Part shown: positions 33,804 through 55,574 of the stretch, one piece after another
How positions within the stretch are numbered: the first letter of the stretch is position 1
How the letters are laid out: each line of letters starts with the position of its first letter
IMG/VR virus record: IMGVR_UViG_3300033273_000460
Coordinates: 43,771 to 107,770 of that record
From: a virus
Direction: 5' to 3' (one strand)
Length of the DNA: 64,000 nucleotides
Notes under the pieces: model-generated
Told to the model about the DNA's origin: nothing
What the model saw: the letters and a program-made list of their open reading frames with translations, nothing else
Database searches by the model: none
Program-made: the position numbers and the translations under genes

Positions 33804-34118
33804 ATGGAAAATTTAGAACAATTTGCAAAGCAACGTCTTGACTGGAATCGTCAACGACTAACACTGCACGAATCACAACAGGCAAGATTGACAGTACCAC
33901 ACAATGGTGGACTGTTCACTGTAGACATGACACTGTTGGTGTATTTGCGTACATCAACTGTTGACACTTGCATACTAGTAGACAGTTATGGAAATCCTGT
34001 GCAAGTGGATGTGCAACAACTGCTAGAACTGTGCGAACAGCGTTGGCAGGAAGTTCTCAATGATTGGCACAATCAATATCAAGAACTCAAACGCATAAGA
34101 AAGGTAGAACAATTATGA
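33804..34118 (+). CDS. Hypothetical protein, first gene of the accessory operon
   Basis: A 104-residue protein of unknown function. It is mostly helical and charged (LEQFAKQRLDWNRQRLTLHE at the start, a Trp- and Glu-rich helix at the end), with a short hydrophobic beta stretch FTVDMTLLVYL in the middle. There is no membrane segment or signal peptide. The ATG is the first possible start after the promoter and the next Met is at residue 42, so a leaderless start is likely. The stop overlaps the following ATG (ATGA). Confidence 0.6.
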   Translation: MENLEQFAKQRLDWNRQRLTLHESQQARLTVPHNGGLFTVDMTLLVYLRTSTVDTCILVDSYGNPVQVDVQQLLELCEQRWQEVLNDWHNQYQELKRIRKVEQL

Positions 34119-34294
34119 GTGATGGACCATTTACATCAGAATTTGATATAGATCTAGAAGGTGTGGTAAGACGTGAATTAACTACATATCGTTATGTAGA
34201 CGGTATGATGCGTATGGAAACTGTTACAAGAGTATACACTGGTAATGACTATAACGACAGTAGTGCAAGTATTCCACTACCGGAGATCAAATAA
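34115..34294 (+). CDS. Small hypothetical protein (59 residues)
   Basis: Short acidic protein starting MSDGPFTSEFDIDLEGVVRR. The ATG overlaps the preceding stop (ATGA), which decides the start over an upstream in-frame one, and a ribosome binding site (AAGG) lies upstream. No domain is recognised. Its stop overlaps the next start (TAATG). Confidence 0.6.
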   Translation: MSDGPFTSEFDIDLEGVVRRELTTYRYVDGMMRMETVTRVYTGNDYNDSSASIPLPEIK

Positions 34295-34461
34295 TGGAAC
34301 CAGTAGATCCTAGCAAAAAACATTTTTATATCAGTATGGTAAAAAGTGCTATACGCATTTGTGCTGGCGGAGTCTTGTGCTTTATGGGCAATGATTTCTT
34401 AATTGTTACTGGTGCGCTCATAATTGCAGCAGAAGTATTAGGCATAGCGGAGGAACTGTGA
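34294..34461 (+). CDS. Small membrane protein (55 residues)
   Basis: A 55-residue protein linked by overlapping codons on both sides (TAATG before, GTGA after). After a short charged start (MEPVDPSKKHFYIS) it has two adjacent hydrophobic stretches: residues 19-31 (AIRICAGGVLCFM) and 35-51 (DFLIVTGALIIAAEVLG). This looks like a small inner-membrane hairpin. The function is unknown; a membrane anchor for operon products is possible. Confidence 0.55.
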   Translation: MEPVDPSKKHFYISMVKSAIRICAGGVLCFMGNDFLIVTGALIIAAEVLGIAEEL

Positions 34462-35240
34462 GCAAAGGATGTCTACTGTTAGCAACCAAACATGAGTCAA
34501 TTGATTATATTGGCATGGCCAAACTTGCGGCTGCACTGGTAGAAAAACATCTCAACATACACACTCACATACACATTGGCGAACAAGTAGAAGGCAATGT
34601 GCGATCGTTTCGTTGGGAAGATGGTACTGTAGAAAACGTGCAATGGTATAACAGTGATAGGCCATGTGCATTTGATATTTCTCCTTTTGAGGAAACACTG
34701 CTTGTAGATGTTGATTATCTCACATTTAATAACAGTCTAGCAGGTGTGTTTGGTAGTGACAATGAGTTCTTGTGTTATGACCGTGCTTGGGATGTCACGC
34801 AAACAGGCACACTCAACAACGAAACCTTTATGACACGCAATGGTCTGCCCATGTTGTGGGCAACTGTGATATACTTTCGTAAAACAGAACTAGCACACAA
34901 CATATTTGAAACTATGAAGATGATACAAAATTCATGGGGATACTATAGTAAACTTTATGGATTTATGGGAGGAAAATATCGCAATGATTTTGCTCTTACA
35001 ATAGCACACCAATTAATGAATGGATATACCAACAACACATGCACATTTGATCATGCTCTTGCAACACTGGGTACAGAAGATACAGTGTATGGTGTGCGTG
35101 ACAATCAACTGTTGATACGCTATAGACATGGTGTAGAACAAAATGCACTACGCCTACAAGATACAAATCTACACTGCATGAACAAACGTTGTTTGCAGGA
35201 TGAACAAATACTAGAAGGACTGTGGAAACTTGCAGCCTAA
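34458..35240 (+). CDS. Glycosyltransferase-like protein (GT-A type)
   Basis: A 260-residue protein starting at GTG overlapping the previous stop. FEETLLVDVDYLTFNN (about residues 77-92) holds a D-V-D motif after a hydrophobic strand, as in GT-A glycosyltransferases that bind a nucleotide sugar through a metal. The N-terminal CLLLATKHESIDYIGMAKL resembles the start of the next protein, which is a diverged paralogue. There is no signal or membrane segment, so it probably acts in the cytoplasm. Donor and acceptor are unknown. Confidence 0.55.
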   Translation: MSKGCLLLATKHESIDYIGMAKLAAALVEKHLNIHTHIHIGEQVEGNVRSFRWEDGTVENVQWYNSDRPCAFDISPFEETLLVDVDYLTFNNSLAGVFGSDNEFLCYDRAWDVTQTGTLNNETFMTRNGLPMLWATVIYFRKTELAHNIFETMKMIQNSWGYYSKLYGFMGGKYRNDFALTIAHQLMNGYTNNTCTFDHALATLGTEDTVYGVRDNQLLIRYRHGVEQNALRLQDTNLHCMNKRCLQDEQILEGLWKLAA

Positions 35241-36045
35241 AAACGGACAGGGCTTTTTAACCTTTGCACACAACACACCAGATGTTGATTATGTCAACAT
35301 GGCATATCTGTTGGCATTGAGCATAAAGCGCAGTTGCAGTATCAACAACTTCAGTGTTGTAGTTACAAAAGGCACAATGTTAACAGATGCACAACGTGAT
35401 GTATTTGATCATGTGATAGAAATACCTACCACACCTCTATTCTACAGCGAGTGCCTTGCTTGGAACTTGACACCCTACAAGGAAACATTTAAACTAGAAT
35501 GTGACATGTTGGTTCCGCGCAGCATTGACCATTGGTGGAGTGCATGTAGACTCAGTGATGTAGTGTTAACCACATGTGTTAGAAACTACAAAGGAGAGAT
35601 TAGTGACAACAGGTTTTACAGGCGTTATTTTGATGCCAACAATTTGGTTGATGCTTATAATGGGTGTGTGTATTTTCGTTTCTCACAAGATAGCAAAACG
35701 TTTTTTGATACAGCACAATCTGTTTATCAAAACTGGGATCTATATCGCGACAGGGTGCTGGTTGGTAGTAACTATCCTAGTGCTGACACAGATGTTTGTT
35801 TTGGTGTTACCGCAGCACTTTTGGATATATTTTCCTGTACTCTGCCATTAGACTTTCCAACTTTTACACACATGAAAGGTGCGATAAACGGCTGGAAATC
35901 ACACATGGACTGGCGTGATGCAGTGCAATGGCACATTGATGATGAACACAATTTGTTTGTTGGCGGAGTTGCACAACAGTATCCTTTCCACTACTACCAA
36001 AAAGACTTTTGTACACCTGAATTGATTGCACACTATGAGTTTTAA
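35230..36045 (+). CDS. Glycosyltransferase-like protein, paralogue of the preceding gene
   Basis: A 271-residue protein with a TTG start overlapping the previous gene by 11 bases. FLTFAHNTPDVDYVNMAYLL parallels the opening of its neighbour, and TPYKETFKLECDMLVPRS (about residues 79-96) takes the place of the D-x-D strand, with E-C-D. A later DTDVCFGVTAAL block may be the second acidic motif. Two adjacent paralogues suggest sequential transfer steps or a heteromer. Assignment is by motif only. Confidence 0.5.
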   Translation: MQPKNGQGFLTFAHNTPDVDYVNMAYLLALSIKRSCSINNFSVVVTKGTMLTDAQRDVFDHVIEIPTTPLFYSECLAWNLTPYKETFKLECDMLVPRSIDHWWSACRLSDVVLTTCVRNYKGEISDNRFYRRYFDANNLVDAYNGCVYFRFSQDSKTFFDTAQSVYQNWDLYRDRVLVGSNYPSADTDVCFGVTAALLDIFSCTLPLDFPTFTHMKGAINGWKSHMDWRDAVQWHIDDEHNLFVGGVAQQYPFHYYQKDFCTPELIAHYEF

Positions 36046-36313
36046 CAACAAATACGGACTAGAATTTAGAATAACCTACAACGATGCAGGAGAACTAACC
36101 AGCGACAAAATTACTGCACGACCAGAAGAGGTTTGGGAACAGTCATATATAGTTGTAGAAGAACATTTTAGCAAACGACCTGGTCACAGAGTTGTAGATG
36201 GTTCTCTCGTAGAAATTGATACCAGCATACACATATATCACAAACCTGCACGTGGTATATTGATCAACAACAATCCATATTTTTGCAAAGAGGAAATCAA
36301 TGACGCAAGTTGA
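36035..36313 (+). CDS. Small hypothetical protein (92 residues)
   Basis: Starts MSFNNKYGLEFRITYNDAGE. The ATG at 36035 is preferred over a TTG nine bases earlier. It is beta-rich with several aromatic residues (WEQSYIVVEEHF, HIYHKPARGILINNN). No family is recognised. It overlaps both neighbours by about a dozen bases, so it is part of the coupled operon. Confidence 0.5.
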   Translation: MSFNNKYGLEFRITYNDAGELTSDKITARPEEVWEQSYIVVEEHFSKRPGHRVVDGSLVEIDTSIHIYHKPARGILINNNPYFCKEEINDAS

Positions 36314-37205
36314 TGTAGCAGATCTAGACTGTATATTTCTCACCTATTATGAACCCAAGCGAGAAGAGTTTTGGGCACAGATCAGCAACATGGTGCCGTG
36401 GGCAAAACGTGTTGATGGTGTTAAAGGATCAGATGCAGCACACAAAGCAGCAGCAGATGCCAGCGACACAGAACGTTTTGTGTTAATTGATGGAGACAAT
36501 TTGCCTGAAGAACGTTTCTTCAATTTGGTTCTTGACATACCAGAAAACATGGCAGACTGTGTGTTCCGTTGGAAAGGACGCAATGACATCAACGGATTGA
36601 TGTATGGCAATGGTGGACTAAGTTGTTGGACTAGAGAGTTTGTCAACAACATGCGCACACACGAAAACACAGATGGCACAGATGCTACACTGGTAGAGTT
36701 TTGTTTTGATAACAAATATCTTCCAATGAACAATTGCTACAGCACCAGTTACCCCAACGGTGATGAGTATCATGCATGGCGTGCAGGATTTAGAGAAGGT
36801 GTTAAACTGTGTTTGGACAGAGGTGCAAAACCTCCAGTGGACAACTTTCCGTGGAACCTGCACCATGTCAACAGAGATCACTTGAGCATTTGGCATAACA
36901 TTGGACGTGATGCGGACTATGGCGAACATGCTATCCAAGGTGCACGTTATGGCACATACAAACTTATGTGTACAGAGTGGGATTGGACTGAAACACAAGA
37001 CTTTGATAAACTAAAAAACATCTACGATGAATGGCAGCAAGACAACTGGGATCAAACCATACTAGCAGCACGTCTTGGATTGGAGATACACGAATACACT
37101 GCAGAACAAAGTGCATTCTTTAAACATCACATGCAACGCACCTATCACGAACATGATGCAATGACCACAGAAATTGAGCTGATACGAAAGGCAGAAGGTT
37201 GGTAA
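36300..37205 (+). CDS. Glycosyltransferase-like protein of the AKRVDGV family
   Basis: A 301-residue protein. DCIFLTYYEPKREEFW, VPWAKRVDGVKG (about residues 32-43) and TERFVLIDGDNLPEERFF (about residues 57-74) give a GT-A-like pattern with a D-G-D motif. The same arrangement (CPRAKRIDGVNG, then TEWFLNVFAK) occurs near the C-terminus of the six-repeat protein at 56.6-58.9 kb, so the two share a domain. YHAWRAGFREGVKL here also corresponds to YETWRTAFREAVKL there. Probably cytoplasmic; substrate unknown. Confidence 0.55.
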   Translation: MTQVDVADLDCIFLTYYEPKREEFWAQISNMVPWAKRVDGVKGSDAAHKAAADASDTERFVLIDGDNLPEERFFNLVLDIPENMADCVFRWKGRNDINGLMYGNGGLSCWTREFVNNMRTHENTDGTDATLVEFCFDNKYLPMNNCYSTSYPNGDEYHAWRAGFREGVKLCLDRGAKPPVDNFPWNLHHVNRDHLSIWHNIGRDADYGEHAIQGARYGTYKLMCTEWDWTETQDFDKLKNIYDEWQQDNWDQTILAARLGLEIHEYTAEQSAFFKHHMQRTYHEHDAMTTEIELIRKAEGW

Positions 37206-38113
37206 TTGATTTAACAAAGTACTGTGGTAGTGTTAGACATTGGAATACACACCTACTAGCATTAGAAATTGCACAAAATAAAAATAGATCAATTGAATTT
37301 GATCTAGCACACGAGCATTGGGATGTTGATGTTAATGGAATACACAGTGTAATACAGGACTGTTTTGTTAATTTGAATATCAAACAACCTATAGTATATG
37401 CACATGACCGCAGACGTTCAATCTCTAATTATTACAAATACATGCTAGATTGGAAGTATAATCCTTGTACCAAAATTGGATATGGTCAATTTTTTGGCAG
37501 ACCCACATATGAAAGATTGTATTGTCATCACAAACATCTCAATTGGCGCCATCGTGCGTTAGGTGTTGCAACTTTTCATTTCTGCCCAGATGGTTTAAAT
37601 GCACACAACTGTGATTTTGTAGAATTTCTTTGGGAACAACCCGAAAAATGGGCTAGTCTTAAAAGTTCTGGCTTGCCTTATGCAGATATAGAATGTAAAT
37701 ACGATGAACACGGTGCCCTTGCTAACCACGGTGTTGATCATACCGATTATGATAATTTGAAACAAGCATATAAAAAAATATGTGCAGAAGTTGTGTGTGA
37801 AACTAACACCCAGGGTAAAACTTATTTTATAACCGAAAAAACACTGAGACCAATGCTAAATGGTTGTATACCTTTGATAATATCAAATGCAGGATATGAG
37901 AGCTATCTAAAAAGTTTAGGTTTTGACCTGTTTGATGATGTGTTAGACAAAAGTTATGATAAGAATACAGGTGCAATAAGGATTGAAAAAGTTTATCATG
38001 TTCTCGAAGATATACTTGTAAACAAAGACAAGTTGTGGTTGAAACAGTTATCCAACAGATTACAAAACAATATAGAACGAGCAACAAGTTACATACAGGA
38101 AAATATTGTATGA
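37199..38113 (+). CDS. Glycosyltransferase-like protein with TEKT motif (GT10-like)
   Basis: A 304-residue protein with a TTG start, AT-rich. FITEKTLRPMLNGCIPLIIS (about residues 208-227) followed by YLKSLGFDLFDDVLDKSYD marks it as one of four relatives in this window. The (V/I)(T/S)EKxxxP block resembles the donor-binding motif of GT10 fucosyltransferases. Other members share an upstream RPHR motif, here replaced by DRRRSISNYYKYMLDWK. It overlaps the next gene by ATGA. Confidence 0.55.
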   Translation: MVIDLTKYCGSVRHWNTHLLALEIAQNKNRSIEFDLAHEHWDVDVNGIHSVIQDCFVNLNIKQPIVYAHDRRRSISNYYKYMLDWKYNPCTKIGYGQFFGRPTYERLYCHHKHLNWRHRALGVATFHFCPDGLNAHNCDFVEFLWEQPEKWASLKSSGLPYADIECKYDEHGALANHGVDHTDYDNLKQAYKKICAEVVCETNTQGKTYFITEKTLRPMLNGCIPLIISNAGYESYLKSLGFDLFDDVLDKSYDKNTGAIRIEKVYHVLEDILVNKDKLWLKQLSNRLQNNIERATSYIQENIV

Positions 38114-39069
38114 AGTGTGGAGCATTTGATAGCGGATTGTCAATACATCCAGATGGAAAAGTAAGTCCTTGTTGTGTGTTTGATCACAATTATTTTCAAG
38201 ACTTGCATGAGTTGGATTGGAATGATCCATGGTTAGATTTACGTGACGGCAGAGGTTGCGCCGCTTGCAAATTTAAAGGTAAAACATATCGAGACAGTTT
38301 CGATGATTTCTTAAATGACAGTTATAAAGTTAGACATCTTGACATTAGAAATAACAACTTGTGTAATTTAGAATGCAGTATATGCAACAGCTATTACAGT
38401 AGTAAATGGGCTGAAAGATTAGGCGAGCAAAAATTTATAAGCACAGAATTTAATATAGATTTATCAAGTGTAGTGTCTATATATTTTGCAGGCGGTGAGC
38501 CATTGTTAAATCCTACACATTGGAAAATACTAGACAGTATACCTCATCCAGAAAGAGTGTCTTTGCAATACAGTACCAATGGTTCTGTTACAAGAAAAAT
38601 TCAAAAGTATTGGCCAAAATTTAGAGATGTATTAGTGTGCGCAAGTATGGATGCATATGGTCAGCTTGGTGAATATTTAAGGTATGGAACAGACTGGAAA
38701 AAATTTGAATCTAATCTAGCCATAATGTCAGAGTATGCAACTGTGAAAATTGTACCTACAGTCAGTGTTTTAAACATTTTTCATCTTGAAAGTTTGGTTA
38801 ATTGGAGTAAGTATGAAATAGAATGGAACTGTTTAACAGGTCCAGATTATTTGTGTGTAAGTGTGCTTCCAACAGAATTAAAAAAACAAATACCGTATGT
38901 ACCAGATGGTGTTGATCAACTACAACAACTTTTAGAAATAGATAGTAGTTATTTATTTCCGCATACAATGAGCTTTGTGCTATTACAGGACAAGATAAAA
39001 GGTACAGATGTTTGGAGTTATCTGCCTTTTGAAAAATATGCAATACAGGAGTATATGCAAAAGAAATGA
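38110..39069 (+). CDS. Radical SAM protein with N-terminal SPASM-like cysteines (no. 1)
   Basis: A 319-residue protein, the shortest of six relatives. The SAM-binding 4Fe-4S motif is C85-x3-C89-x2-C92 (LCNLECSIC), followed by FAGGEPLLNP for SAM binding. Before the core lie Cys3, Cys21-22 (GKVSPCC) and Cys50/Cys53 (GCAAC), which match SPASM/twitch-type auxiliary cluster ligands but stand at the N-terminus. ATG 38110 overlaps the preceding stop (ATGA) and removes an unconvincing 25-residue extension. Such enzymes start radical chemistry on peptides or sugars; the substrate is unknown. Confidence 0.8.
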   Translation: MKCGAFDSGLSIHPDGKVSPCCVFDHNYFQDLHELDWNDPWLDLRDGRGCAACKFKGKTYRDSFDDFLNDSYKVRHLDIRNNNLCNLECSICNSYYSSKWAERLGEQKFISTEFNIDLSSVVSIYFAGGEPLLNPTHWKILDSIPHPERVSLQYSTNGSVTRKIQKYWPKFRDVLVCASMDAYGQLGEYLRYGTDWKKFESNLAIMSEYATVKIVPTVSVLNIFHLESLVNWSKYEIEWNCLTGPDYLCVSVLPTELKKQIPYVPDGVDQLQQLLEIDSSYLFPHTMSFVLLQDKIKGTDVWSYLPFEKYAIQEYMQKK

Positions 39070-40427
39070 GTGATTATTACAAAGATGCACAGGTTGCACA
39101 ACAACGGTTAGCAGGCATAAGTGACAGTTTCTGTTTGGCCAAATGGAAACAGGTAAGCCTACATTTGACCACAGGACACACCAACAGTTGTTATCATCCT
39201 CCACTGCATCGTATACCCATAGAACCACTTGCTGACAATCCAAGTGCATTGCACAACACTGAACACAAAAAGCAGAGCCGCCGTGAAATGATGGCAGGTG
39301 TAAAGTGCAGTGATTGTCAATACTGTTGGAACATTGAAGCACAAGGCAACATGAGTGACCGTCACTATCGCAGTGGTGAGCGTTGGGCTATGGAAAGTTT
39401 TGAGGATATTGTAAACAATCCACAGGCAGATGTCAACCCTAGTTATGTTGAAGTTAACTTTAACCATGCATGCAATCTAAAGTGCAGTTATTGCAGTCCA
39501 CAGTTTAGCAGCACATGGGAACAGGAAACAAAAGAACATGGTGCATGGCCTACCAGCACACCACACAATGATCCAAAGCACTTTACAGGTGAACGGCGTC
39601 CTATTCCCAACAGAGAGCACAACCCATACAGAGAAGCATTCTGGCGTTGGTGGCCAGACCTGTATCCAGACCTCAAACACTTTCGCATGACAGGCGGTGA
39701 ACCCTCAATGGATCCCAACACCTATCGTGTGTTTGACTATGTGCTGGAAAATCCAAAAAGTGATCTACACCTAAACACCACCAGTAACTTTAGTGTGGAC
39801 CAACGTGTGTGGGAAAAATACAAAGGCTATGTGCAACGGCTGTGCAAAGGAGAACAAATTGAACACTTTATGCAGTTTGTTAGTTTAGACACATGGGGTG
39901 CCCAAGCAGAATACATACGACATGGACTAGACTTTGAACTAGCGATAAATAGATGTGAAGAGTTTGTTCGCGATGTCCCCTATCGTAGCAGTCTAACGTT
40001 CATTATAACAATGAATAATTTGAGTATACTTTCTCTCAAAAAACTATTAGAATATATTGTACACTTACGCAAAACCTACACAGACACATACCAACGTGTA
40101 TGGTTTGATACTCCACTGTTGTACACTCCAGACTGGCAAAGCATGCAGATACTGCCTATGGAGTTTCAAATAGTAATGCAAGAATGTATACGCTACATGG
40201 AAGACAACTTGCACGACATGCATGGATTCAAGGACTACGAAGTGTTAAAAATGAAGCGTGATTTAGATTGGATGCTACAAGGCACCACAGATGTAGAACG
40301 CAAACGTGGAGACTTCTATAGATTCTTTAGTGAACATGATCGCAGACGCGGCACAAACTTTTTAGAGACATTTCCTGAAATGGAACAGTTTTGGAGACAG
40401 TGTGAATATTTTAGTAACAGGCAGTGA
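39066..40427 (+). CDS. Radical SAM protein with N-terminal auxiliary cysteines (no. 2)
   Basis: A 453-residue protein. The core motif is C136-x3-C140-x2-C143 (ACNLKCSYC), with MTGGEPSMDPN as the SAM-contact GGE. The N-terminal set is C23, C42 (SCYHPP) and C81/C84/C87 (CSDCQYCW). A block HNTEHKKQSRREMMAG precedes the last cysteine group. It is closely related to no. 3 (subfamily with the CxxKW start and CxHPP motif). The ATG overlaps the preceding stop (ATGA). Confidence 0.82.
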   Translation: MSDYYKDAQVAQQRLAGISDSFCLAKWKQVSLHLTTGHTNSCYHPPLHRIPIEPLADNPSALHNTEHKKQSRREMMAGVKCSDCQYCWNIEAQGNMSDRHYRSGERWAMESFEDIVNNPQADVNPSYVEVNFNHACNLKCSYCSPQFSSTWEQETKEHGAWPTSTPHNDPKHFTGERRPIPNREHNPYREAFWRWWPDLYPDLKHFRMTGGEPSMDPNTYRVFDYVLENPKSDLHLNTTSNFSVDQRVWEKYKGYVQRLCKGEQIEHFMQFVSLDTWGAQAEYIRHGLDFELAINRCEEFVRDVPYRSSLTFIITMNNLSILSLKKLLEYIVHLRKTYTDTYQRVWFDTPLLYTPDWQSMQILPMEFQIVMQECIRYMEDNLHDMHGFKDYEVLKMKRDLDWMLQGTTDVERKRGDFYRFFSEHDRRRGTNFLETFPEMEQFWRQCEYFSNRQ

Positions 40428-41220
40428 TGGTTTTCTCGGCAAACACACAGTACAATATTTGCGCAGCAAAGGTCACACTGTAACTGCACATAATACAGAT
40501 GTGTTAGATGGATTACCAGAACACACATATGATGTAGTATTTCATTTTGCTGCTTATGTAGGCGGTCGCAAAGGAATTGAAAATAATACCTGGCTAGTTG
40601 CTAAAAATATTGAAATAGACAGAACTGTTTTTGAATGGGCAGAAACACACTGTGGGAAGATAGTATATCCTAGTAGTTGTGCCGCATATCCTTTGTGGAC
40701 ACAAACAAGCACAGATATTACAATGAAAGAAAATTTGCCATTGGATAGTGTGTATGATATTTATGGTCTAAGCAAAGTAACTGCTGAACGTATGTTAAGG
40801 TACACTAAAATAACAAGTAACATAGTGCGCATTTTTAGCAGTTATGGGCCAGATCAAACATTAGATTATCCTTTGCCTAGCATCATTGCAAGAGCAAAGC
40901 AAGGTGAATGTAGTGTATGGGGTACAGGCACACAGACTAGAGATTGGGTATACATTGATGATGTATTGCGTGTGTTTGAATATTTGCTTACAAATGACGT
41001 AGGTGTATTAAATATTGGCACAGGCGTTGCTACTAGTTTTCACGACTTAGCACAAACTATATATCGTTGTATACACGGAATTACTATACCTGTTAGCGTA
41101 ACCGCATCCGAACCCGAAGGCGCAAGCCATAGATGTGCAGATATTACACTGTTACAGAAACTAGGGTTAGAACCAAATGTTACCTTAGAACAAGGAATAT
41201 ACAGATGCTTAAAACAATAG
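40402..41220 (+). CDS. NAD-dependent sugar epimerase/dehydratase (GDP-fucose synthase-like)
   Basis: A 272-residue extended short-chain dehydrogenase with a GTG start overlapping the previous gene by 26 bases. NILVTGSDGFLG gives the Rossmann GxxGxxG (Gly7, 10, 13). YPSSCAAYP supplies the catalytic Ser/Thr region, and Y121-GLS-K125 is the YxxxK pair. HFAAYVGGRKGI and the ending RCADITLLQKLGLEP match GDP-4-keto-6-deoxymannose epimerase/reductases (Fcl/WcaG), though it is shorter than the roughly 310 residues usual there. It would supply an activated deoxysugar to the glycosyltransferases in the same operon. Confidence 0.8.
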   Translation: MNILVTGSDGFLGKHTVQYLRSKGHTVTAHNTDVLDGLPEHTYDVVFHFAAYVGGRKGIENNTWLVAKNIEIDRTVFEWAETHCGKIVYPSSCAAYPLWTQTSTDITMKENLPLDSVYDIYGLSKVTAERMLRYTKITSNIVRIFSSYGPDQTLDYPLPSIIARAKQGECSVWGTGTQTRDWVYIDDVLRVFEYLLTNDVGVLNIGTGVATSFHDLAQTIYRCIHGITIPVSVTASEPEGASHRCADITLLQKLGLEPNVTLEQGIYRCLKQ

Positions 41221-47603: not shown

Positions 47604-48262
47604 TTGGTGTAATTGGAAATGGCTTAATCAGCGGTTGTATACAAAACAGTATTGGTGTTGACAAGGTATTCACAAGTAAAAATATACACACTATTGGTGA
47701 AAACGAGTATGATGTTGTTTACTGTGCAGCACCAACTAGTAATAGGATTTGGGCAAGCAAAAATCCAGATCTAGATAAAAAAAGTGTACACAGTATTATC
47801 AACGAATGTACACTTGCTAATATCAAAAGATTTGTTCTAGTAAGCACTGGCGATACACAAATAAAGCCATGGACTACTTATGGTCAAAACAGATTAAAAT
47901 TAGAAAATTTTGTTAAACAACACTACAGTGACTATGGCATTATTAGATTACCTTGTTTGATACACAATAGCATTACAAAAAATTTATTATGGGATATAAA
48001 ACACAAGAAATGGCTAGATAAAATAAATCTTAATGTTACCAATCAATGGTTTGATCTCAACAACCTTGAAAATTATCTCAACGTTGAACAAGAATTTAAT
48101 GTATGCAGTGAACCTATTTCAAATAAAAAAATTATTGCACGTTTTGCTCATGAGATATTTGATTTGCTAGATGTATCTAAACCACACGAGTTATATAATT
48201 TAGAACCCTATAGTTTTACAACTGAAGAAATTTTTAGAAGCATAGAGAATTACCTAAAGTGA
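47600..48262 (+). CDS. Reduced NAD(P)-binding epimerase-like protein
   Basis: A 220-residue protein. IGVIGNGLISGCI supplies a Rossmann glycine motif, YDVVYCAAPTSNRIWA resembles the strand-4 region of sugar epimerases, and RFVLVSTGDTQ with the later YGQNRLKLENF occupies the place of the Ser and YxxxK catalytic residues. The Lys is replaced by Arg (Y-GQN-R). The C-terminal substrate domain is short. It may bind a nucleotide sugar without the usual chemistry, or be a reductase of a divergent type. It overlaps both neighbours by four bases. Confidence 0.5.
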   Translation: MIGVIGNGLISGCIQNSIGVDKVFTSKNIHTIGENEYDVVYCAAPTSNRIWASKNPDLDKKSVHSIINECTLANIKRFVLVSTGDTQIKPWTTYGQNRLKLENFVKQHYSDYGIIRLPCLIHNSITKNLLWDIKHKKWLDKINLNVTNQWFDLNNLENYLNVEQEFNVCSEPISNKKIIARFAHEIFDLLDVSKPHELYNLEPYSFTTEEIFRSIENYLK

Positions 48263-48825
48263 TTTATATTTGTGGAGATAGTTTTGCAACATCTGATGTT
48301 GAAAGCAACATCGTACCTTGGCATGAACAATTAGAATGTGTTAATCTCAGTCGTAAGTGTGCTACCAATCTACAAATAAGTCAGCAAGTAGATCATGCAA
48401 TTGCACATGCTAGTTTCGTTATAGTACTGTTTACAACTTGTGTAAGATTTGAATATAACGACGACAGTTATACACTACATAATTTAGACACAAGTAACTT
48501 AACCAACAAGCAAAAGCAGTTGGTAACTGAACATGCTAAACATTTTTTTAATTTAGACTTGGAAATTTATAGAAACAAGTGTATAATAGAAAGTGTATTG
48601 CAACGTTTGGTTGATAGTAATATACCATTTATTTTTGACCAGGGCGGGTTTGAACATACAAAGTTTGGTGCGGTGAACAAATACTTTAGTAAGTATGATC
48701 ATTGTCGTAGTCAATATAACCTATGGGATTATGGCGATAGTAAAACATACAGACCTTATTTTCATATCACAGATCAAACAATACACAACATGATAGCAGA
48801 ATATTACAATGAACAAACCCAATAA
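48259..48825 (+). CDS. SGNH-like hydrolase, divergent
   Basis: A 188-residue protein with a GTG start. IYICGDSFATSDVESNIVPW matches block I of SGNH hydrolases (G-D-S-F). A middle VIVLFTTCVRFEYND is in the place of the Gly/Asn blocks. The late HITDQTIHNMIAEYY has a His with an Asp four residues before it, a variant of the usual DxxH. If active, it would be an esterase, perhaps removing acyl groups from the glycan made by neighbouring genes. Confidence 0.5.
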   Translation: MIYICGDSFATSDVESNIVPWHEQLECVNLSRKCATNLQISQQVDHAIAHASFVIVLFTTCVRFEYNDDSYTLHNLDTSNLTNKQKQLVTEHAKHFFNLDLEIYRNKCIIESVLQRLVDSNIPFIFDQGGFEHTKFGAVNKYFSKYDHCRSQYNLWDYGDSKTYRPYFHITDQTIHNMIAEYYNEQTQ

Positions 48826-50074
48826 CCTGTGTATGGCACCATGGACACACACTTATCTCAGTCCGCAAACAGAACGGCGACTGTGTTGTGCTAGTCGAGA
48901 ACCTGCACAAAACTTCAAGCAGTATATAGACACTGCAGAAGGTACTAATGAATATGTTCCAAGCACACTAGAAGAATGGTGGAACGGTGAACACATACGT
49001 CGCATACGCACACAGATGTTAAATAATCAAGTGCCTCCTGAATGTGTGGTTTGTGATAAAAAACTACTAAACCAAGATGTATACAGAGACTATTTCAATC
49101 ATTTGTTTGCACACAAATGGCCAGAAGTTTTAGAAAGTACAACAGAATCTGGACATACTACAATGCAACCTGTAAGTTGGGACTACCGTTTTAGCAACCT
49201 GTGCAATTTCAAATGTCGTATGTGCGGCCCTATGCTGAGTAGCAGTTGGGAAACAGAGGCACGCAAACAAGGCAAAATAGAACCTTGGATGGAAAAAAGT
49301 GTAAAGAAAAGTATTGATAGTTTTCAAAAAGATACTGTAGAACAAGAGTTTGCTACTGCAGTTGAAGAACACAGAGTAGAAGAAATATATTGGGTTGGTG
49401 GTGAACCATTGATGTATGAACAACATTGGCGTTACATGCAACGTATAATAGAACTGGGAGATGGGCCAGGACTGTATGCACGTTACAACACAAACCTTAG
49501 CAGGATCAACTACAAAGGCATTAACCTCTACAGTGATATACTTGATAAGATCCGTGATTGGCAAATTTGTGCCAGCATAGATGGCACAGGCAGTATAGGA
49601 GAATACATACGCACAGGGCTAAACTACGAAGAATGGCTAGAATATTTTTGTCAAGGAATAAGTCACAGTCGCAACAGACGCATGATGCGTATAGATTTCA
49701 CTCTTACCACCCCCGGACTTTTTGAAGTTATAAATATCTGCAAGTTAGCAAAACAGTTAGATGTTGACATTCTTGCAAAGGTTACATTTGCCTTTACACC
49801 AGACATAGCAATGAGCCCATTGTTTCTGCCTAGAAATTTATTGGAGTCAGTGATTGATGATATATTACCCAACTGTGATAATGGCACGATGCACAACATG
49901 TTAACCACACTGCTAGACAGGCCTACATTTGAAGAGGAATATCCAGATCAATATCAGCAAGCAAGGATCGTAGGAAAAAAGCGCATGGATGCAATGGACA
50001 AATTGCGAGGCGGTATGTGCTTTGCTGACACACTTGATGCACAAACAAGAAAGTGGTGGAATGAAATCAGTTAA
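48809..50074 (+). CDS. Radical SAM protein with N-terminal SPASM-like domain (no. 6)
   Basis: A 421-residue protein. C8-MAPW, RRLCCAS (C26-27) and CVVC (79, 82) form the N-terminal auxiliary set; TLEEWWNGEHIRRIRTQMLN is the SPASM helix also seen in no. 4. The core is C132-x3-C136-x2-C139 (LCNFKCRMC), with WVGGEPLMYEQH. It is separated from the first five by a glycosyltransferase-like, an epimerase-like and an SGNH-like gene, repeating the mix seen earlier in the operon. Confidence 0.83.
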   Translation: MNKPNNLCMAPWTHTYLSPQTERRLCCASREPAQNFKQYIDTAEGTNEYVPSTLEEWWNGEHIRRIRTQMLNNQVPPECVVCDKKLLNQDVYRDYFNHLFAHKWPEVLESTTESGHTTMQPVSWDYRFSNLCNFKCRMCGPMLSSSWETEARKQGKIEPWMEKSVKKSIDSFQKDTVEQEFATAVEEHRVEEIYWVGGEPLMYEQHWRYMQRIIELGDGPGLYARYNTNLSRINYKGINLYSDILDKIRDWQICASIDGTGSIGEYIRTGLNYEEWLEYFCQGISHSRNRRMMRIDFTLTTPGLFEVINICKLAKQLDVDILAKVTFAFTPDIAMSPLFLPRNLLESVIDDILPNCDNGTMHNMLTTLLDRPTFEEEYPDQYQQARIVGKKRMDAMDKLRGGMCFADTLDAQTRKWWNEIS

Positions 50075-51149
50075 AGTTGTATTGAGAAATTATCAAACCA
50101 ATGAAACCTTAGACTACAACATAGTTCCCAATGATACCCAATTGGCCCAAGATTGGATGGCTGCATTAGAAAAAGATATTCTCAAAACAAATTTACACCT
50201 AGAAAAGAACTTTTGTTTTCACGGTTTCCCTTATACACAACGAACTTTGGAATTATTGTGTAGTGAATTAAATCGTCATATCTATAATATCAACACCAGT
50301 GGACTTGGTTACACCATTGAAGAATGGTTTGCTCCGGATGTTGTACGGTTTGGAGATGAATATCCTGTTGGAAACTATACAGACAACATGCGTAATCATG
50401 GCTTAAAAGTTAAACACAGTGTAATGAATCAACTGCACAATCATTTTGAGGTATTACAAGGAACTGTAGAACATCCAAGTGAGTATGCAAAGTTCATGTC
50501 ACCAGAAACTACATACGCAGTAAGACAGTTAAACAATATCTGCCATGAAATGGAAACTCTTGTATTAAGCCAACGCAAACTTGCTTACGACCCACACTGG
50601 GTACGTCCTAGTCAAATCACAACATTTCTACGATGTCCTCGGCATGATCTAACAGATGAACACAGACAAGGATTTATTGACAATGGGTATGACAGAGAAT
50701 TAGGCGGTGTGTACATGCACTGGTGTCAGATTGGTAAGACACTGATGGAAGTGTACAGAGATGAAGGTGCACCAGAACTCACAGATGCAGTGTGCGAGGC
50801 CATAACTCATTTGCAGTATTACAGCGGTGAGTTTGACATAGAATGGGCCAATGATGTAACATACACTAGTAATAATCCGTGGCACCGTGATGAAATAGAT
50901 GGTTTTACAAATTGGTTGTGTGAAAATAACCACGATCCACAGGATCCAAAACTAAGTCTAGGCTATTTAAAATTAGGTAGTGTAGATTTAAAAGGTTCTT
51001 TTGGTAGCGAAAATGGTCAGGACATTTGGCAGCAAATGGGAGATTATCTAGACATTTATCGCATTGAATGTGGAAATACCACAGCAACATACGACTATCA
51101 CTGGAGTGACACAGATCATGAACAACGACAATTGGGCGCACTAACATAA
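50061..51149 (+). CDS. Hypothetical protein of the accessory operon
   Basis: A 362-residue protein starting MKSVKVVLRNYQTNETLDYN. ATG 50061 is preferred over an earlier start inside the radical SAM gene. LAYDPHWVRPSQITTFLRCP near residue 175 and GSVDLKGSFGSENGQDIW near the end are the most distinctive stretches, and there are many Trp and His residues. No domain is recognised. It is followed by a 13-base gap, the only non-overlapping junction in the operon. Confidence 0.5.
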   Translation: MKSVKVVLRNYQTNETLDYNIVPNDTQLAQDWMAALEKDILKTNLHLEKNFCFHGFPYTQRTLELLCSELNRHIYNINTSGLGYTIEEWFAPDVVRFGDEYPVGNYTDNMRNHGLKVKHSVMNQLHNHFEVLQGTVEHPSEYAKFMSPETTYAVRQLNNICHEMETLVLSQRKLAYDPHWVRPSQITTFLRCPRHDLTDEHRQGFIDNGYDRELGGVYMHWCQIGKTLMEVYRDEGAPELTDAVCEAITHLQYYSGEFDIEWANDVTYTSNNPWHRDEIDGFTNWLCENNHDPQDPKLSLGYLKLGSVDLKGSFGSENGQDIWQQMGDYLDIYRIECGNTTATYDYHWSDTDHEQRQLGALT

Positions 51150-51162
51150 ACGAGGATCATTG

Positions 51163-52302
51163 ATGGACATAAGAATAAAAGAAATATTTCGCAAAGAAAG
51201 CAATAGGCAAAACAATACTGTTGAACTTATTGCCAGTGAAAACTTTGCAAGTGCTGATGTAATGGAACTTGTTGGTAGTATTTTTACCAACAAGTATGCC
51301 GAAGGTTATCCGGGCAAACGTTACTACAACGGTTGCGATCATATGGATGAGATCGAGCAACTGGCAATAGATCAACTAAAAGAAATCTACGGTTGTGAGT
51401 TTGCCAACGTTCAACCACACTGCGGTGCTAATGCCAACACTGCCATTTACCTAGCGTTCCTTAAACCAGGCGACCGTATACTTGGCATGGATCTAGCCAG
51501 TGGCGGACATCTAAGTCACGGTGCACCAGTTAACATCAGTGGTAAAGTTTATGAGGCACATCACTATGGTGTGGATGCAGATGGTTGGTTAAACTATGAT
51601 GACATTGAACAGCAGGCAGTAGAACTACAGCCTAAGATTATTGTAGCAGGTGCCAGTGCTTATCCTCGTCACATCAACTTTGCACGTTTTAGAAGTATTG
51701 CAGACAAAGTTGGTGCATACCTGCTGGTTGACATGGCACACTACAGTGGACTGGTTGCTGGCAATGCATATCCTAGTCCTGTTGAACATGCAGACTTTGT
51801 AACAAGCACCACACACAAAACACTGCGTGGACCTAGAGGCGGTTTTATACTGTGGAACAATCCAGACTTCACACGCAAGATTAACAGTGCAATCTTTCCT
51901 GGCACACAAGGCGGTCCACTGATGAATATCATTGCCGCAAAAGCACAGGCATTTATTGAAGCAAACACACCAGAGTTTGCAGATTATGCACGCCGTGTTG
52001 TGGAAAATGCACAAGCAATGTGTGAAGTTTTTGTAACAAATGGATTTAAAGTACAAACAGGTGGTACATGTTCACACATTATTCTAATGGACTTGAGTGA
52101 GTCTAAATACAGTGGGCGTGAGGCTGCAGACTTGTTAGAAGCAAATGGAATCACAGTAAATAAAAATGGGGTACCAAACGATCCACGTAGTTTTGTAGAA
52201 ACCAGTGGTATACGAATTGGCACTGCCGCAGAAACAACTCGAGGTCACGATGACGAATGGTTCAGAGACCTCGCCAGAAGAATTTGTGAGATATTAGCAT
52301 GA
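51163..52302 (+). CDS. glyA: Serine hydroxymethyltransferase
   Basis: A 379-residue PLP enzyme that converts serine and tetrahydrofolate to glycine and methylene-tetrahydrofolate. Family hallmarks are clear: ELIASENFAS (21-30), NKYAEGYPGKRYYNGC (43-58), the Asp of LLVDMAHYSGL (about 190) and the PLP lysine K219 in TSTTHKTLRGPRGG. It is about 40 residues shorter than bacterial GlyA (about 415-420). ATG 51163 has GAGG upstream. Product methylene-THF is the cofactor of ThyX, encoded at 59.9-60.5 kb. Alternatively it could serve the modification pathway. Phage-encoded copies are uncommon. Confidence 0.95.
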   Translation: MDIRIKEIFRKESNRQNNTVELIASENFASADVMELVGSIFTNKYAEGYPGKRYYNGCDHMDEIEQLAIDQLKEIYGCEFANVQPHCGANANTAIYLAFLKPGDRILGMDLASGGHLSHGAPVNISGKVYEAHHYGVDADGWLNYDDIEQQAVELQPKIIVAGASAYPRHINFARFRSIADKVGAYLLVDMAHYSGLVAGNAYPSPVEHADFVTSTTHKTLRGPRGGFILWNNPDFTRKINSAIFPGTQGGPLMNIIAAKAQAFIEANTPEFADYARRVVENAQAMCEVFVTNGFKVQTGGTCSHIILMDLSESKYSGREAADLLEANGITVNKNGVPNDPRSFVETSGIRIGTAAETTRGHDDEWFRDLARRICEILA

Positions 52303-52403
52303 TTACATTTATAAAAAAGATTGTAAACAAAATCAAACTGGAGATAAGATATCGCAAGCGTCTAAAAGAATTGCGCAAGCGTGATCCTTTTATATACAAA
52401 TGA
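52299..52403 (+). CDS. Tiny basic protein (34 residues)
   Basis: Starts MITFIKKIVNKIKLEIRYRK and ends KRDPFIYK. It is strongly basic and probably one amphipathic helix. Both ends overlap the neighbours by four bases (ATGA), which strongly supports that it is translated. Short proteins with a similar basic KRLKELRKRDPFIY ending are familiar in marine T4-like phages, so a real conserved gene is likely. Function unknown; a small leader-type peptide substrate is possible but it has no obvious core residues. Confidence 0.6.
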   Translation: MITFIKKIVNKIKLEIRYRKRLKELRKRDPFIYK

Positions 52404-52642
52404 TAGAAATCAAAATTGGTATATTCAATCTACTCAAAAAGGTCATAGGCGGAAGCAGCCTACAACTTGCAGTTGTTTATACCATTGGACACATACTGAT
52501 TGCAATGACCTGCAATAGAATGATAACTGGTGCAGACTGGGCACTAGCAGGTGCAGATGCACTCATTGAACCAATCATTAATGGTTTCTGGTTTTACATA
52601 CTACACAAAGGCTATAAAGTTTATAGCAGTAAACAAAAATGA
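52400..52642 (+). CDS. Small membrane protein, DUF2061-like
   Basis: An 80-residue protein with two hydrophobic segments (about residues 20-38, LQLAVVYTIGHILIAMT, and 56-72, IEPIINGFWFYILHKGY). The pattern of a polar start, a first helix, an acidic/Gly loop and a second helix ending with aromatic/basic residues resembles DUF2061. Codon overlaps on both sides (ATGA) tie it to the operon. It could anchor a cytoplasmic complex at the membrane. Confidence 0.55.
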   Translation: MIEIKIGIFNLLKKVIGGSSLQLAVVYTIGHILIAMTCNRMITGADWALAGADALIEPIINGFWFYILHKGYKVYSSKQK

Positions 52643-53271
52643 AACTGGTTACGTTTGGTGACAGTTGGCCTGCAGGTGAAGAATTAAATCCAGGAGAAAA
52701 ACCTTTTGGTCAAATCATTGCAGAAATATTAACATTTGATTTTGCAAATTATGCACAGTCTGCTACAAGCATACCTCACATGATAATACAACTTCAACAA
52801 TGTATTAAAGACGATCCTGGCGGTCATCCAATGGCATTGTTTTGTATAACCAGTAGCAGTAGAAGCATGTATTACGACGATGATTATCTGGAAAATATGG
52901 GGTGGCGTGAAATACACATTAGCAACGAAGATACTGCTAGTGAAAGTTATTATCGCAATTTGTATAGTGATCAACTGGCTCATTTTCATGCCAATGTGTA
53001 CCTGCTTGCACTGCAACAAATTTGCCAGAAACACAGTATCAACGATAGATATGTTTTTTGTTGGGAAAATTTTGATTTAATGCCTGGTATTGATACAAGT
53101 AAAATATATCCTCGCACCCTTGCTGACATTATAGGTGTTGGGTTGCCTTTGGGTAGAAAAGATGTATTAATTGACAGCAATCATGAATGTGTTAAACCAA
53201 ACGAAAATCATCCCAATCAAAAAGGACATCAAAAAATTGCTGATGAACTAGCACGATGGATACAAAAATGA
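52639..53271 (+). CDS. SGNH-type esterase
   Basis: A 210-residue protein. KLVTFGDSWPAGEELN (residues 2-17) is a clear block I with Ser nucleophile (GDSW). ALFCITSSSRSMYYDDD corresponds to the block III region. NENHPNQKGHQKIADELARW near the end holds the catalytic His block. The family removes acyl groups from sugars or lipids. Directly before the carbamoyltransferase (ATGA overlap), it may tailor the same product. Confidence 0.7.
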   Translation: MKLVTFGDSWPAGEELNPGEKPFGQIIAEILTFDFANYAQSATSIPHMIIQLQQCIKDDPGGHPMALFCITSSSRSMYYDDDYLENMGWREIHISNEDTASESYYRNLYSDQLAHFHANVYLLALQQICQKHSINDRYVFCWENFDLMPGIDTSKIYPRTLADIIGVGLPLGRKDVLIDSNHECVKPNENHPNQKGHQKIADELARWIQK

Positions 53272-54740
53272 TATTAGGACTTAGTGCTGGATTTCATGAC
53301 GCTGGTGCAACACTTGTAAACACCAACGGCGATATACTGTTTGCAGGTCATGCAGAACGTTACAGCGGCATAAAGAATGATGCTAACCTCAATGATGCAC
53401 TGTTAGAAGATGCATGCAGTTATGGCAAACCTACCAGTATAGCATGGTACGAAAACCATTGGCGTAAACGCACACGACAGATCTACAGTGGCGAATGGCG
53501 CAAAGCACTAGACTTTAGCACAACACCACAAGCACTGTGTTCCAAACACAACTTACAGGCACCTATAACCAGTTATGGTCATCACATGTGCCACGCAGCA
53601 GCAGGATTCCAAACAAGTCCTTTTGAACGGTGTAAAGTACTAGTTGTGGACGCCATTGGCGAATGGGACACTGTTAGTGTTTGGGATGCATGGTATGATG
53701 ATGATGGGTATGCACGTTATAAAAAGATTTGGAGTCAACGTTATCCGCACAGCATAGGACTATACTACAGTGCAGTCACACACTACGTTGGGCTCAAGCC
53801 TATGGAAGATGAATACATACTGATGGGCATGGCAGCATATGGCAAAGGATATCTCACTGCATACCAAGAAAACCTAAAACTGTGGAGTGACGATAGAAAT
53901 ATAAAACTTGTGGACAATTTACACACAGGCATTGACGAAGAATGGTTCAGTGGCACAGGACTCAATGAATATGATATTGCAGCAGGTGCACAAAAAGTTG
54001 TTGAAAAACTGTTAATAGAATTGGTGCAACGTTGGTGCGGTCTCGACGAGAATTTGGTGTTTATGGGAGGTGTTGCACTCAACTGTGTTGCCAACAGCCA
54101 AATAAGATTTTATTGCAACGACCTATGGATCATGCCTAATCCAGGTGATTGTGGTAGCAGTTTGGGTGCTGCAGCACTACAGTACGGCAAAAAACTCAAC
54201 TGGCAAGGTCCTTATTTGGGACATGACATGGGCAACAAGTATCCTACAGATGAACTACTGGGAGAATTACAAACAAATAAAATTGTAGGTGTTGCTACAG
54301 GTCGTGCAGAGTTTGGACCGCGAGCATTGGGCACTAGAAGTTTGTTAGCAGATCCACGTGGCAATGACATCAAAGACCGTGTAAACGAAATAAAACGCAG
54401 ACAAAAGTTTAGACCATTTGCTCCAATGGTGTTAGAAGAACATGCCAGTAGATATTTTGATATGCATAGAGAAATAAATCCATACATGCAAGGCACATAC
54501 AAATGTCTAGCACCAGAACTGTTTCCTGCTATTGTGCATGCAGACAATACCAGCAGAGTACAAACAGTAGGACGTAACGATCATCCAGGCGTGAGAGAAC
54601 TGTTAGAAAAGTGGTATGTACTCACAGATTGCCCTATTTTGTTAAATACTAGTCTGAATATTAAAGGCGAACCTATGGTTAACAACAGAGCAGATGCTGA
54701 TAGGTTTGAACAGCGTTATGGAGTACGAGTGTGTTCATAG
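53268..54740 (+). CDS. Carbamoyltransferase (NodU/CmcH/TobZ family)
   Basis: A 490-residue protein, somewhat shorter than the usual 550-600. MILGLSAGFHDAGATLV opens the Kae1-like domain; HHMCHAAAGF (about residue 103) carries metal-binding His residues, EDEYILMGMAAYGKG and VFMGGVALNC follow, and the C-terminal Sua5-like part has EFGPRALGTRSLLADPR (about residue 345). Family members use carbamoyl phosphate and ATP to carbamoylate a sugar hydroxyl (nodulation factors, tobramycin). It therefore supports a decorated sugar as the operon product. The ATG overlaps the SGNH gene stop (ATGA). Confidence 0.93.
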   Translation: MILGLSAGFHDAGATLVNTNGDILFAGHAERYSGIKNDANLNDALLEDACSYGKPTSIAWYENHWRKRTRQIYSGEWRKALDFSTTPQALCSKHNLQAPITSYGHHMCHAAAGFQTSPFERCKVLVVDAIGEWDTVSVWDAWYDDDGYARYKKIWSQRYPHSIGLYYSAVTHYVGLKPMEDEYILMGMAAYGKGYLTAYQENLKLWSDDRNIKLVDNLHTGIDEEWFSGTGLNEYDIAAGAQKVVEKLLIELVQRWCGLDENLVFMGGVALNCVANSQIRFYCNDLWIMPNPGDCGSSLGAAALQYGKKLNWQGPYLGHDMGNKYPTDELLGELQTNKIVGVATGRAEFGPRALGTRSLLADPRGNDIKDRVNEIKRRQKFRPFAPMVLEEHASRYFDMHREINPYMQGTYKCLAPELFPAIVHADNTSRVQTVGRNDHPGVRELLEKWYVLTDCPILLNTSLNIKGEPMVNNRADADRFEQRYGVRVCS

Positions 54741-55267
54741 ACCAATTACACCCTAGTTTTTATCACATCAAAGATGTGTTCACTGACCAGCAACTTACAG
54801 AATTAAGAAGTTTGTACTGGGACAAACACACATGGCAAGAATTAGCAGACGAATGGGATAACATACGCCATAAAAAAACATTAGATTTTGAGATAGACGG
54901 ATTGGAAGAAATACAAAATTTTATCGAAGACAGATTACAAAAACCAGTATATCCAAATAGTCCTCAATTATGGTTTGATTATCCTGGTTACATAGATCGT
55001 TTACACACAAGTACTGGTCCTAATATACATGTGGCTGCAAAAATATATCTTATTCACAGTTCAAATACACAACAAGGCACCTACTTTATAGATGACGTCA
55101 CTGATCATGAAAAGAGGAGTCTATACCATATTGATTATGTTGTGAATACAGGATATGTAATGTTTGGGCCTACACAATTTAGCCATGGCATGAGGCATCC
55201 TGTAACAGATCATCGTATGAGTCTTTATCAAAGTTATAGGCTCAATTCAATTGCAGCCAACGAGTAG
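54731..55267 (+). CDS. Double-stranded beta-helix protein, 2OG-Fe(II) oxygenase-like
   Basis: A 178-residue protein with a GTG start overlapping the carbamoyltransferase by 10 bases. YIDRLHTSTGPNIHVAAKIYL, GTYFIDD and FGPTQFSHGMRHPVTDHRMSLY follow the strand order of phage 2-oxoglutarate/Fe(II) dioxygenases, with the distal His and Arg in place. The first metal motif is weak: HxT where HxD is expected. It may be a hydroxylase with altered metal binding or a non-catalytic member. Confidence 0.5.
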   Translation: MFIDQLHPSFYHIKDVFTDQQLTELRSLYWDKHTWQELADEWDNIRHKKTLDFEIDGLEEIQNFIEDRLQKPVYPNSPQLWFDYPGYIDRLHTSTGPNIHVAAKIYLIHSSNTQQGTYFIDDVTDHEKRSLYHIDYVVNTGYVMFGPTQFSHGMRHPVTDHRMSLYQSYRLNSIAANE

Positions 55268-55574
55268 TGATGTGCAACTAAAAGACAAAGTAATAGTCGC
55301 ACTTAGAGATGTGTATGATCCTGAAATCAGTATCAACGTGTATGACCTTGGGCTAATATATAACATTGAAGTAACAGGCACACATGTACATGTTCAGCAC
55401 TCACTTACCAGCATGATGTGTCCATTTGCAGATCAAATCTGTGAGGACATTACCAATGCTGTCAAAGGCGTAGATGGTGTAGAAACTGTAGAGCGAGAAT
55501 TGGTTTGGGAGCCGGAGTTTGGTCCAGAAATGGTACCAGAGGATACTAAATTAGCTTTGGGTTGGGATTTTTAA
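55251..55574 (+). CDS. MIP18/SufT-family Fe-S cluster assembly protein
   Basis: A 107-residue DUF59 protein with a TTG start. DPEISINVYDLGLIYNIEV (about residues 24-42), SLTSMMCPFADQI with the conserved Cys-Pro, VDGVETVERELVWEP and a final KLALGWDF match the MIP18/PaaD/SufT family along its whole length. These proteins help insert Fe-S clusters into target enzymes. As last gene of an operon with six radical SAM proteins, each needing one or more clusters, it is a plausible dedicated maturation factor. It converges with the next gene, overlapping it by 24 bases. Confidence 0.88.
   Translation: MQPTSSDVQLKDKVIVALRDVYDPEISINVYDLGLIYNIEVTGTHVHVQHSLTSMMCPFADQICEDITNAVKGVDGVETVERELVWEPEFGPEMVPEDTKLALGWDF

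Follow-up and report, generated by a model that had tools for sequence, protein, structure and literature searches.

A conserved core of five twitch radical SAM enzymes, a carbamoyltransferase and a DPFIYK-tailed microprotein in a T4-like phage operon possibly devoted to surface-glycan decoration

Islands of radical S-adenosylmethionine (SAM) genes are already known from phages. In pelagimyophages and cyanomyophages the host-recognition cluster is a hypervariable island in which radical SAM cassettes occur with genes for glycosyltransferases and tail fibres, and for which a surface change against co-infection was proposed (PMC7029224). The T4-like environmental genome TARA_ERS488813_N000010 has 12 radical SAM genes and a paaD gene of the MIP18 type, read as Fe-S cluster auxiliary genes (PMC5332604). 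The subject of this study is a 28-gene operon at positions 33804 to 55574 of a 64,000-nucleotide stretch of DNA from a marine virus (the window), which constitutes the final 64 kb of the 107,770-bp IMG/VR virus record IMGVR_UViG_3300033273_000460. A sequence-only reading of this operon had named single phage radical SAM genes as known, whereas multiple such genes in phages are in fact already published (PMC5332604, PMC7029224); its statement that such a set has no settled function is one we share.

How much of the operon is a unit? Comparison with 18 viral relatives found via the radical SAM gene g15, some of them near-duplicates (L001/L002, L013-L016), shows a core, conserved in its order, that comprises five twitch radical SAM enzymes, the 34-residue microprotein g23 and the carbamoyltransferase g26; between its members, genes of the epimerase, TEK, SGNH-like and oxygenase-like types are swapped. 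Where the contig extends far enough, the relatives have the order fibres-g1-g4-g5-g7-g10-g14-g15-g16-g20-(g21)-g23-g26-(g27/g28)-h2 with differing genes inserted between, the core consisting of g1, g4, g5, g7, the radical SAM genes g10, g14, g15, g16 and g20, usually g21, g23 and g26. The varying genes include g8, g9, g11, g12, g17, g18, g19, g22, g24 and g25 and others, and a more distant type (L013-L016) contains the carbamoyltransferase, several twitch radical SAM genes and the microprotein in another order. In none of the 18 relatives was a gene for serine hydroxymethyltransferase (SHMT) found. The set is thus real, but its total of 28 genes is an assortment particular to this phage. The earlier proposal of a single pathway of 28 genes is therefore not upheld, as the order of the core is conserved but many genes swap and a second perfect promoter precedes g13; scattered genes devoid of conserved sets, which had been named as the outcome that would speak against any common system, are not what the relatives contain. 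The same fibre-g1-g4-g5-g7-radical SAM layout was also seen in three loci filed in metagenome-assembled genomes (MAGs) of Rhodobacteraceae and Rickettsiales (L160, L164, L166), which are phage DNA. The genes of the operon, and the gene that follows it, are as follows.

g1, 33804..34118, plus strand: 104 residues, conserved, function unknown, phrog_6694
g2, 34115..34294, plus strand: 59 residues, unknown, no PHROG
g3, 34294..34461, plus strand: 55 residues, putative membrane protein from sequence, no PHROG
g4, 34458..35240, plus strand: conserved, putative GT-A-like (by eye)
g5, 35230..36045, plus strand: conserved, putative GT-A-like (by eye)
g6, 36035..36313, plus strand: 92 residues, present in two relatives
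g7, 36300..37205, plus strand: conserved core, GT-A-like fold predicted weakly
g8, 37199..38113, plus strand: TEKxxKP-type protein, variable
g9, 38110..39069, plus strand: twitch radical SAM, divergent, accessory
g10, 39066..40427, plus strand: twitch radical SAM, core
g11, 40402..41220, plus strand: NAD-dependent epimerase, accessory
g12, 41205..42200, plus strand: TEKxxKP-type protein, accessory
g13, 42193..42855, plus strand: unknown, accessory, start revised
g14, 42845..44164, plus strand: twitch radical SAM, core
g15, 44161..45471, plus strand: twitch radical SAM, core, N-terminal region matching the BtrN twitch domain
g16, 45464..46636, plus strand: twitch radical SAM, core
g17, 46620..47603, plus strand: TEKxxKP-type protein, accessory, start revised
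g18, 47600..48262, plus strand: NAD-binding epimerase-like (weak), accessory
g19, 48259..48825, plus strand: SGNH-like by eye, accessory
g20, 48809..50074, plus strand: twitch radical SAM, core
g21, 50061..51149, plus strand: common in the group, no family or fold match
g22, 51163..52302, plus strand: SHMT (glyA), not found in the first 18 relatives
g23, 52299..52403, plus strand: 34-residue microprotein ending KRDPFIYK, companion of the carbamoyltransferase
g24, 52400..52642, plus strand: DUF2061 membrane protein
g25, 52639..53271, plus strand: SGNH/DUF6071-like
g26, 53268..54740, plus strand: NodU/CmcH/TobZ-type O-carbamoyltransferase, core
g27, 54731..55267, plus strand: putative oxygenase-like
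g28, 55251..55574, plus strand: MIP18/PaaD-type FeS assembly protein (FeS_assembly_P)
h2, 56614..58920, plus strand: immediately past the operon, with relatives in 51 of the 80 carbamoyltransferase loci nearest g26

All six radical SAM enzymes of the window, assigned with Pfam, PHROG and NCBIfam, score 182-400 bits against the NCBIfam model NF033640, above its curated cut-off of 170 bits, and have intact CxxxCxxC and GGEP motifs, so that the earlier count of six stands in full; in g9 the match begins only at profile position 105. In the g15 alignment the cysteines and GGE are invariant. Furthermore, the N-terminal residues 36-107 of a profile of g15 relatives match the C-terminal twitch domain of BtrN (E 1e-3), and the predicted twitch domain of g15 is thus N-terminal, the reverse of the usual order.

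Bacterial genomes were scanned with the g15 alignment, and enzymes of the g15 type turned up in Bdellovibrionota as well as other groups. Eight twitch radical SAM genes stand together in Bacteriovoracaceae UBA6144 (L157). In a maximum-likelihood tree each of the phage g10, g14, g16 and g20 clades has an L157 member as its nearest bacterial relative (97-100% support), and another lies inside the g15 clade (98/98). Because each core enzyme groups with its own L157 counterpart, the five represent five old, distinct functions and form an orthologous set with the tandem genes of this Bacteriovoracaceae bacterium. Other Bdellovibrionia genomes have up to 20 twitch members, and two loci of a Bdellovibrionia MAG (L262, L263) constitute an unexplored biosynthetic cluster of about 30 kb with more than a dozen twitch radical SAM genes. 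Of 12 bacterial genomes that encode twitch radical SAM enzymes, 11 also have carbamoyltransferases, in several cases within about 15 kb (13 kb from the set in the L157 genome). In two other Bdellovibrionota loci (L266, L268) both enzymes are encoded beside ABC2_membrane and ABC_tran exporters and GT1-group glycosyltransferases, the glycosyltransferase matches of L268 being slightly under the curated cut-off; in a third (L267) they occur with a GT2 and with ORFs that are exporter-like by sequence only.

The carbamoyltransferase g26 contains Carbam_trans_N and Carbam_trans_C domains and the invariant His/Asp positions, and matches the structures of NovN, GdmN and TobZ strongly. Upstream of it lies g23 (MITFIKKIVNKIKLEIRYRKRLKELRKRDPFIYK, 34 residues, end -KRDPFIYK*), which is the most novel element of the operon and was overlooked in the sequence-only reading. 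Nearly all relatives keep it, and when close relatives are compared over its final 20 codons, 8-9 synonymous and 0 nonsynonymous differences are seen. A DNA pattern for KRDPFIY[KE] found at least 120 loci in viral contigs (L024-L143); among the matches listed, the motif is located at, or at most 2 residues from, the C-terminus of a short open reading frame (ORF) in 120/120. A carbamoyltransferase accompanies it within the locus in 96/120, in most cases immediately downstream, and is encoded elsewhere in the record in 14 others, hence in 110/120. When loci were picked on carbamoyltransferase sequence alone, 69 of the 80 nearest g26 had a DPFIY-tailed short ORF, always upstream and on the same strand, and none was found on the other strand in the 956 kb of these loci; their contigs are shared with the 120-locus set and the figure is valid for the g26-like clade only. 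A radical SAM gene and the microprotein are both present in 55 of the 80, and 14 of the 15 carbamoyltransferase loci without a nearby radical SAM gene still have the microprotein.

The pairing extends to bacteria: an unannotated ORF of this kind lies just 5' of the g26 homologue both in Mesorhizobium huakuii (..RRRDPFIYE) and in Streptomyces sp. Mg1 (..RRTDPFMYK). On these plasmids (L144, L145) a DUF6071 (SGNH-like) gene stands beside the pair. The linkage is confined to the g26-like clade, since no DPFIY-tailed protein was seen with the more distant carbamoyltransferases of cyanophages and pelagiphages (S-CAM8, HTVC008M, about 28% identity). Read through into the carbamoyltransferase, the microprotein would be joined to it by linkers of 3-4 residues, too short for a fair structural test of such a fusion. 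For g23 there was no Pfam family and no convincing PHROG, and a tblastn search with the 34-residue peptide against the phage collection returned nothing, possibly owing to the low-complexity filter. Bacterial genomes scanned with g26 alone gave no match. In phages without nearby radical SAM genes the microprotein and carbamoyltransferase are often located between T4-like primase and helicase genes. We tentatively propose that carbamoyltransferases of this clade, in phages and bacteria, may require the DPFIYK microprotein as a membrane adaptor, activator or carrier, and that it might, together with the five twitch radical SAM enzymes, make an undescribed radically modified, carbamoylated surface glycan; this is a possibility with odds clearly below even.

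The operon starts at a composite promoter-hairpin, and one further promoter lies inside the operon.

33769..33797, plus strand: perfect sigma-70 promoter TTGACA-N17-TATAAT with extended TG, 6 bp 5' of the g1 start
33772..33791, no strand: hairpin with 8-bp arms, ACAGGGCC-GCAA-GGCCCTGT, within the promoter spacer, arms covarying among relatives
42109..42137, plus strand: second perfect sigma-70 promoter, in the 3' end of g12, before g13

Three perfect promoters were observed in the window compared with 0.10 expected from window shuffles. The g1 promoter is kept in L001-L004 and degenerate in L007, L011 and L012, and the hairpin arms covary (GGGCC/GGCCC, GGCGC/GCGCC and GGACC/GGTCC in L001, L003 and L004). 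In L007, L011 and L012 promoter and hairpin overlap at the same border between fibres and operon with a different sequence; the composite keeps its structure, with compensatory changes, while its sequence differs. The T4 late-promoter type NATAAATA stands directly 5' of several virion genes, whereas TATAAATA alone showed no enrichment. Since a perfect sigma-70 promoter precedes g1 and late-type promoters precede virion genes, the operon would be expressed early by the host polymerase.

The sequence-only reading described 28 genes on the plus strand over 21.8 kb, in which every junction overlaps except that before glyA, and both statements are borne out: the 28 ORFs end where described, 26 of 27 junctions overlap, many as ATGA, GTGA or TAATG, and the sole non-overlapping one is the 10-13 bp before glyA (51149 to 51160/51163). 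This coupling is local to the 28-gene run, as the adjoining virion genes are mostly spaced by gaps of 1-56 bp. For g13 the start is probably the TTG at 42193, given that the other TTG, at 42109, belongs to the internal promoter as its -35 box; for g17 it is probably 46620. Tail sheath, portal, major head and baseplate/fibre families were matched in the record, which identifies the virus as a T4-like myovirus. The operon starts 57 bp 3' of the fibre genes, a location kept in relatives. It displays the features of a host-recognition cluster, namely those of a variable island of a T4-like phage that carries glycan genes and is situated in the tail-fibre region. The DNA of 34458-42450 had no similar sequence among 50,697 phage records.

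What might the operon do? We give roughly even odds (about 0.5) to the reading that it serves synthesis and decoration of a surface glycan, in a hypervariable host-recognition cluster beside tail-fibre genes, and is expressed early. Of the products suggested before, a decorated sugar is the best supported, mainly because the radical SAM and carbamoyltransferase genes of L266, L267 and L268 adjoin exporters and/or glycosyltransferases, and also because of the host-recognition cluster described in PMC7029224. In this reading a host sigma-70 promoter would drive the operon early in infection. Glycosyltransferases and nucleotide sugars would provide a glycan or glycolipid on which the radical SAM enzymes would perform up to five different radical steps, g28 aiding their Fe-S supply, and which g26 would O-carbamoylate. 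The microprotein would bring g26 to the membrane or activate it there: the hydrophobic/basic N-terminus of g23 would rest on the membrane, and its invariant -DPFIYK tail would bind the enzyme. The altered surface would then conceal the receptor of the infected host from competing phages, or, alternatively, the virion's own fibres would be decorated; the biological purpose is probably masking of the host surface. Several points weigh against this reading. To our knowledge a substrate is known for no NF033640 enzyme, the L157 and L155 radical SAM sets have no immediately adjacent glycosyltransferase or exporter, and the radical SAM-rich L262/L263 contain Asp/Asn hydroxylases, which would fit peptide modification. 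In L099 and L103 the microprotein stands directly 5' of a radical SAM gene, the amphipathicity of the g23 N-terminus is modest, and the function given to g23 is deduced from genetic linkage. Moreover, fold and motif evidence for g4, g5, g7 and the TEK proteins as glycosyltransferases is weak, and early expression and superinfection exclusion are read from sequence.

The nearest competitor, with perhaps one chance in five, is that the targets are virion proteins, the tail fibres of the phage itself or others, which the operon would glycosylate, carbamoylate or radically modify so as to tune host recognition or shield the fibres. Its conserved place 57 bp from the fibre genes and the joint travel of g1, g4, g5 and g7 with these genes would agree with this, but the sigma-70 promoter and hairpin separate the operon from the fibres, several virion genes have late-type promoters, and bacterial relatives that have no virion use the same enzymes. 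A hot spot that gathers unrelated cassettes would explain why accessory genes are freely swapped, why SHMT is found here only and why a promoter lies before g13; this reading is largely contradicted by the conserved core, the order of which (five radical SAM genes, microprotein and carbamoyltransferase) is kept down to about 50% protein identity, and by the co-occurrence of radical SAM gene and microprotein in most carbamoyltransferase loci nearest g26, and it appears improbable.

Equally improbable is a peptide pathway, in which g23 would be a ribosomal precursor or scaffold with a radical SAM-modified and carbamoylated ..FIYK tail like the precursors of mycofactocin or PQQ. The idea is invited by the presence, beside SPASM/twitch-related radical SAM enzymes, of a short conserved peptide whose invariant C-terminus contains a Tyr, and by the radical SAM gene directly 3' of the microprotein in L099 and L103. 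However, the peptide tracks the carbamoyltransferase and is retained where radical SAM genes are not nearby, which weakens the earlier suggestion of a radically modified peptide; L155/L157, bacterial loci with radical SAM genes, showed no DPFIY tail; and g23, with its invariant C-terminus and varying N-terminus, lacks the leader/core split usual for ribosomally synthesized and post-translationally modified peptides of SPASM/radical SAM enzymes. Nucleic-acid modification is the least probable and would be surprising: in its action g26 would correspond to the phage 5-hydroxymethylcytosine carbamoyltransferase, and SHMT would provide one-carbon units. An enzyme of the same superfamily does make 5-carbamoyloxymethylcytosine in a phage (PMC8670742), and many microprotein-carbamoyltransferase pairs lie between primase and helicase genes. 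Yet g26 is only about 24% identical to that enzyme, the 107.8-kb record, which is possibly incomplete, contains no thymidylate-synthase-type hydroxymethylase (PF00303), and carbamoyltransferases of unmodified contigs stand beside glycosyltransferases (PMC8670742).

Family searches agree with the earlier naming of SHMT (g22), carbamoyltransferase (g26) and MIP18 (g28), and the other assignments fared less evenly. The TEKxxKP motif can be aligned across g8, g12 and g17, the three supposed transferases, but they have no Pfam family, including no Pfam glycosyltransferase match (GT10-like candidate). Of the two epimerase-type proteins g11 stands, whereas g18 matches NAD_binding_10 under the cut-off. 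Both proteins called SGNH-like, g19 and g25, had no significant Pfam match, but the latter resembles a DUF6071 protein of Streptomyces (1e-8). The GT-A-like proteins g4, g5 and g7 had no Pfam match either; a model of g7 (pLDDT 73) gave weak matches to GT-A/nucleotidyltransferase folds (E 0.05-1). Sequence searches with g7 and g21 against solved structures yielded nothing significant, and the fold search with g21 no match. Elsewhere in the window the baseplate/fibre region contains one 4512-residue ORF (14175-27713), and near the operon a DegT/DnrJ-type aminotransferase, probably sugar-related, is encoded at 58867-59847 on the minus strand and also occurs in several relatives.

If the reading of surface-glycan decoration holds, scattered phage radical SAM genes would become a defined, testable system of five orthologous enzymes common to phages and a predatory-bacterial lineage, to which a carbamoyltransferase and a very small conserved protein overlooked by annotation also belong. 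It would assign the NF033640 family its first function and many carbamoyltransferases a partner, offer a clue to DUF5989/SxtK and indicate a way in which marine phages remodel host surfaces. In the literature searched no description was found of the core as defined here, of its orthologues in bacteria, of the promoter-hairpin or of the microprotein. Like the present locus, the host-recognition cluster of PMC7029224 is an island of fibres, glycosyltransferases and radical SAM cassettes in T4-like marine phages, but no conserved five-radical SAM set, carbamoyltransferase-microprotein pair or early promoter-hairpin is defined in the accessible part of that article. TARA_ERS488813_N000010 likewise combines many radical SAM genes with a MIP18-type gene, and no operon, glycan or microprotein is described in the accessible part of its source (PMC5332604). 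All six operon enzymes belong by score to the N-terminal-twitch subfamily NF033640, the model of which names no reaction, whereas in this operon five distinct orthologues stay together as a set. With the phage 5-hydroxymethylcytosine carbamoyltransferase (PMC8670742) g26 shares the superfamily, but its context differs by the missing thymidylate-synthase homologue. To the O-carbamoyltransferases TobZ, NovN, GdmN and NodU it is similar over the whole length, including the invariant His/Asp positions, but it is linked to a microprotein with an invariant C-terminus. The Pfam model DUF5989 (PF19451) did not match this phage record, though the controls gave no match either. In carbamoyltransferase-SxtJ-DUF5989 modules (Planctomyces L151; Bacteriovoracaceae L265) a small protein with a C-terminal PFIY also stands by the carbamoyltransferase; DUF5989 is a transmembrane protein ending PFIYTLF or PFIYTVF, whereas the phage g23 is basic and ends DPFIYK, and the PFIY tails of DUF5989 are a suggestive parallel to g23.

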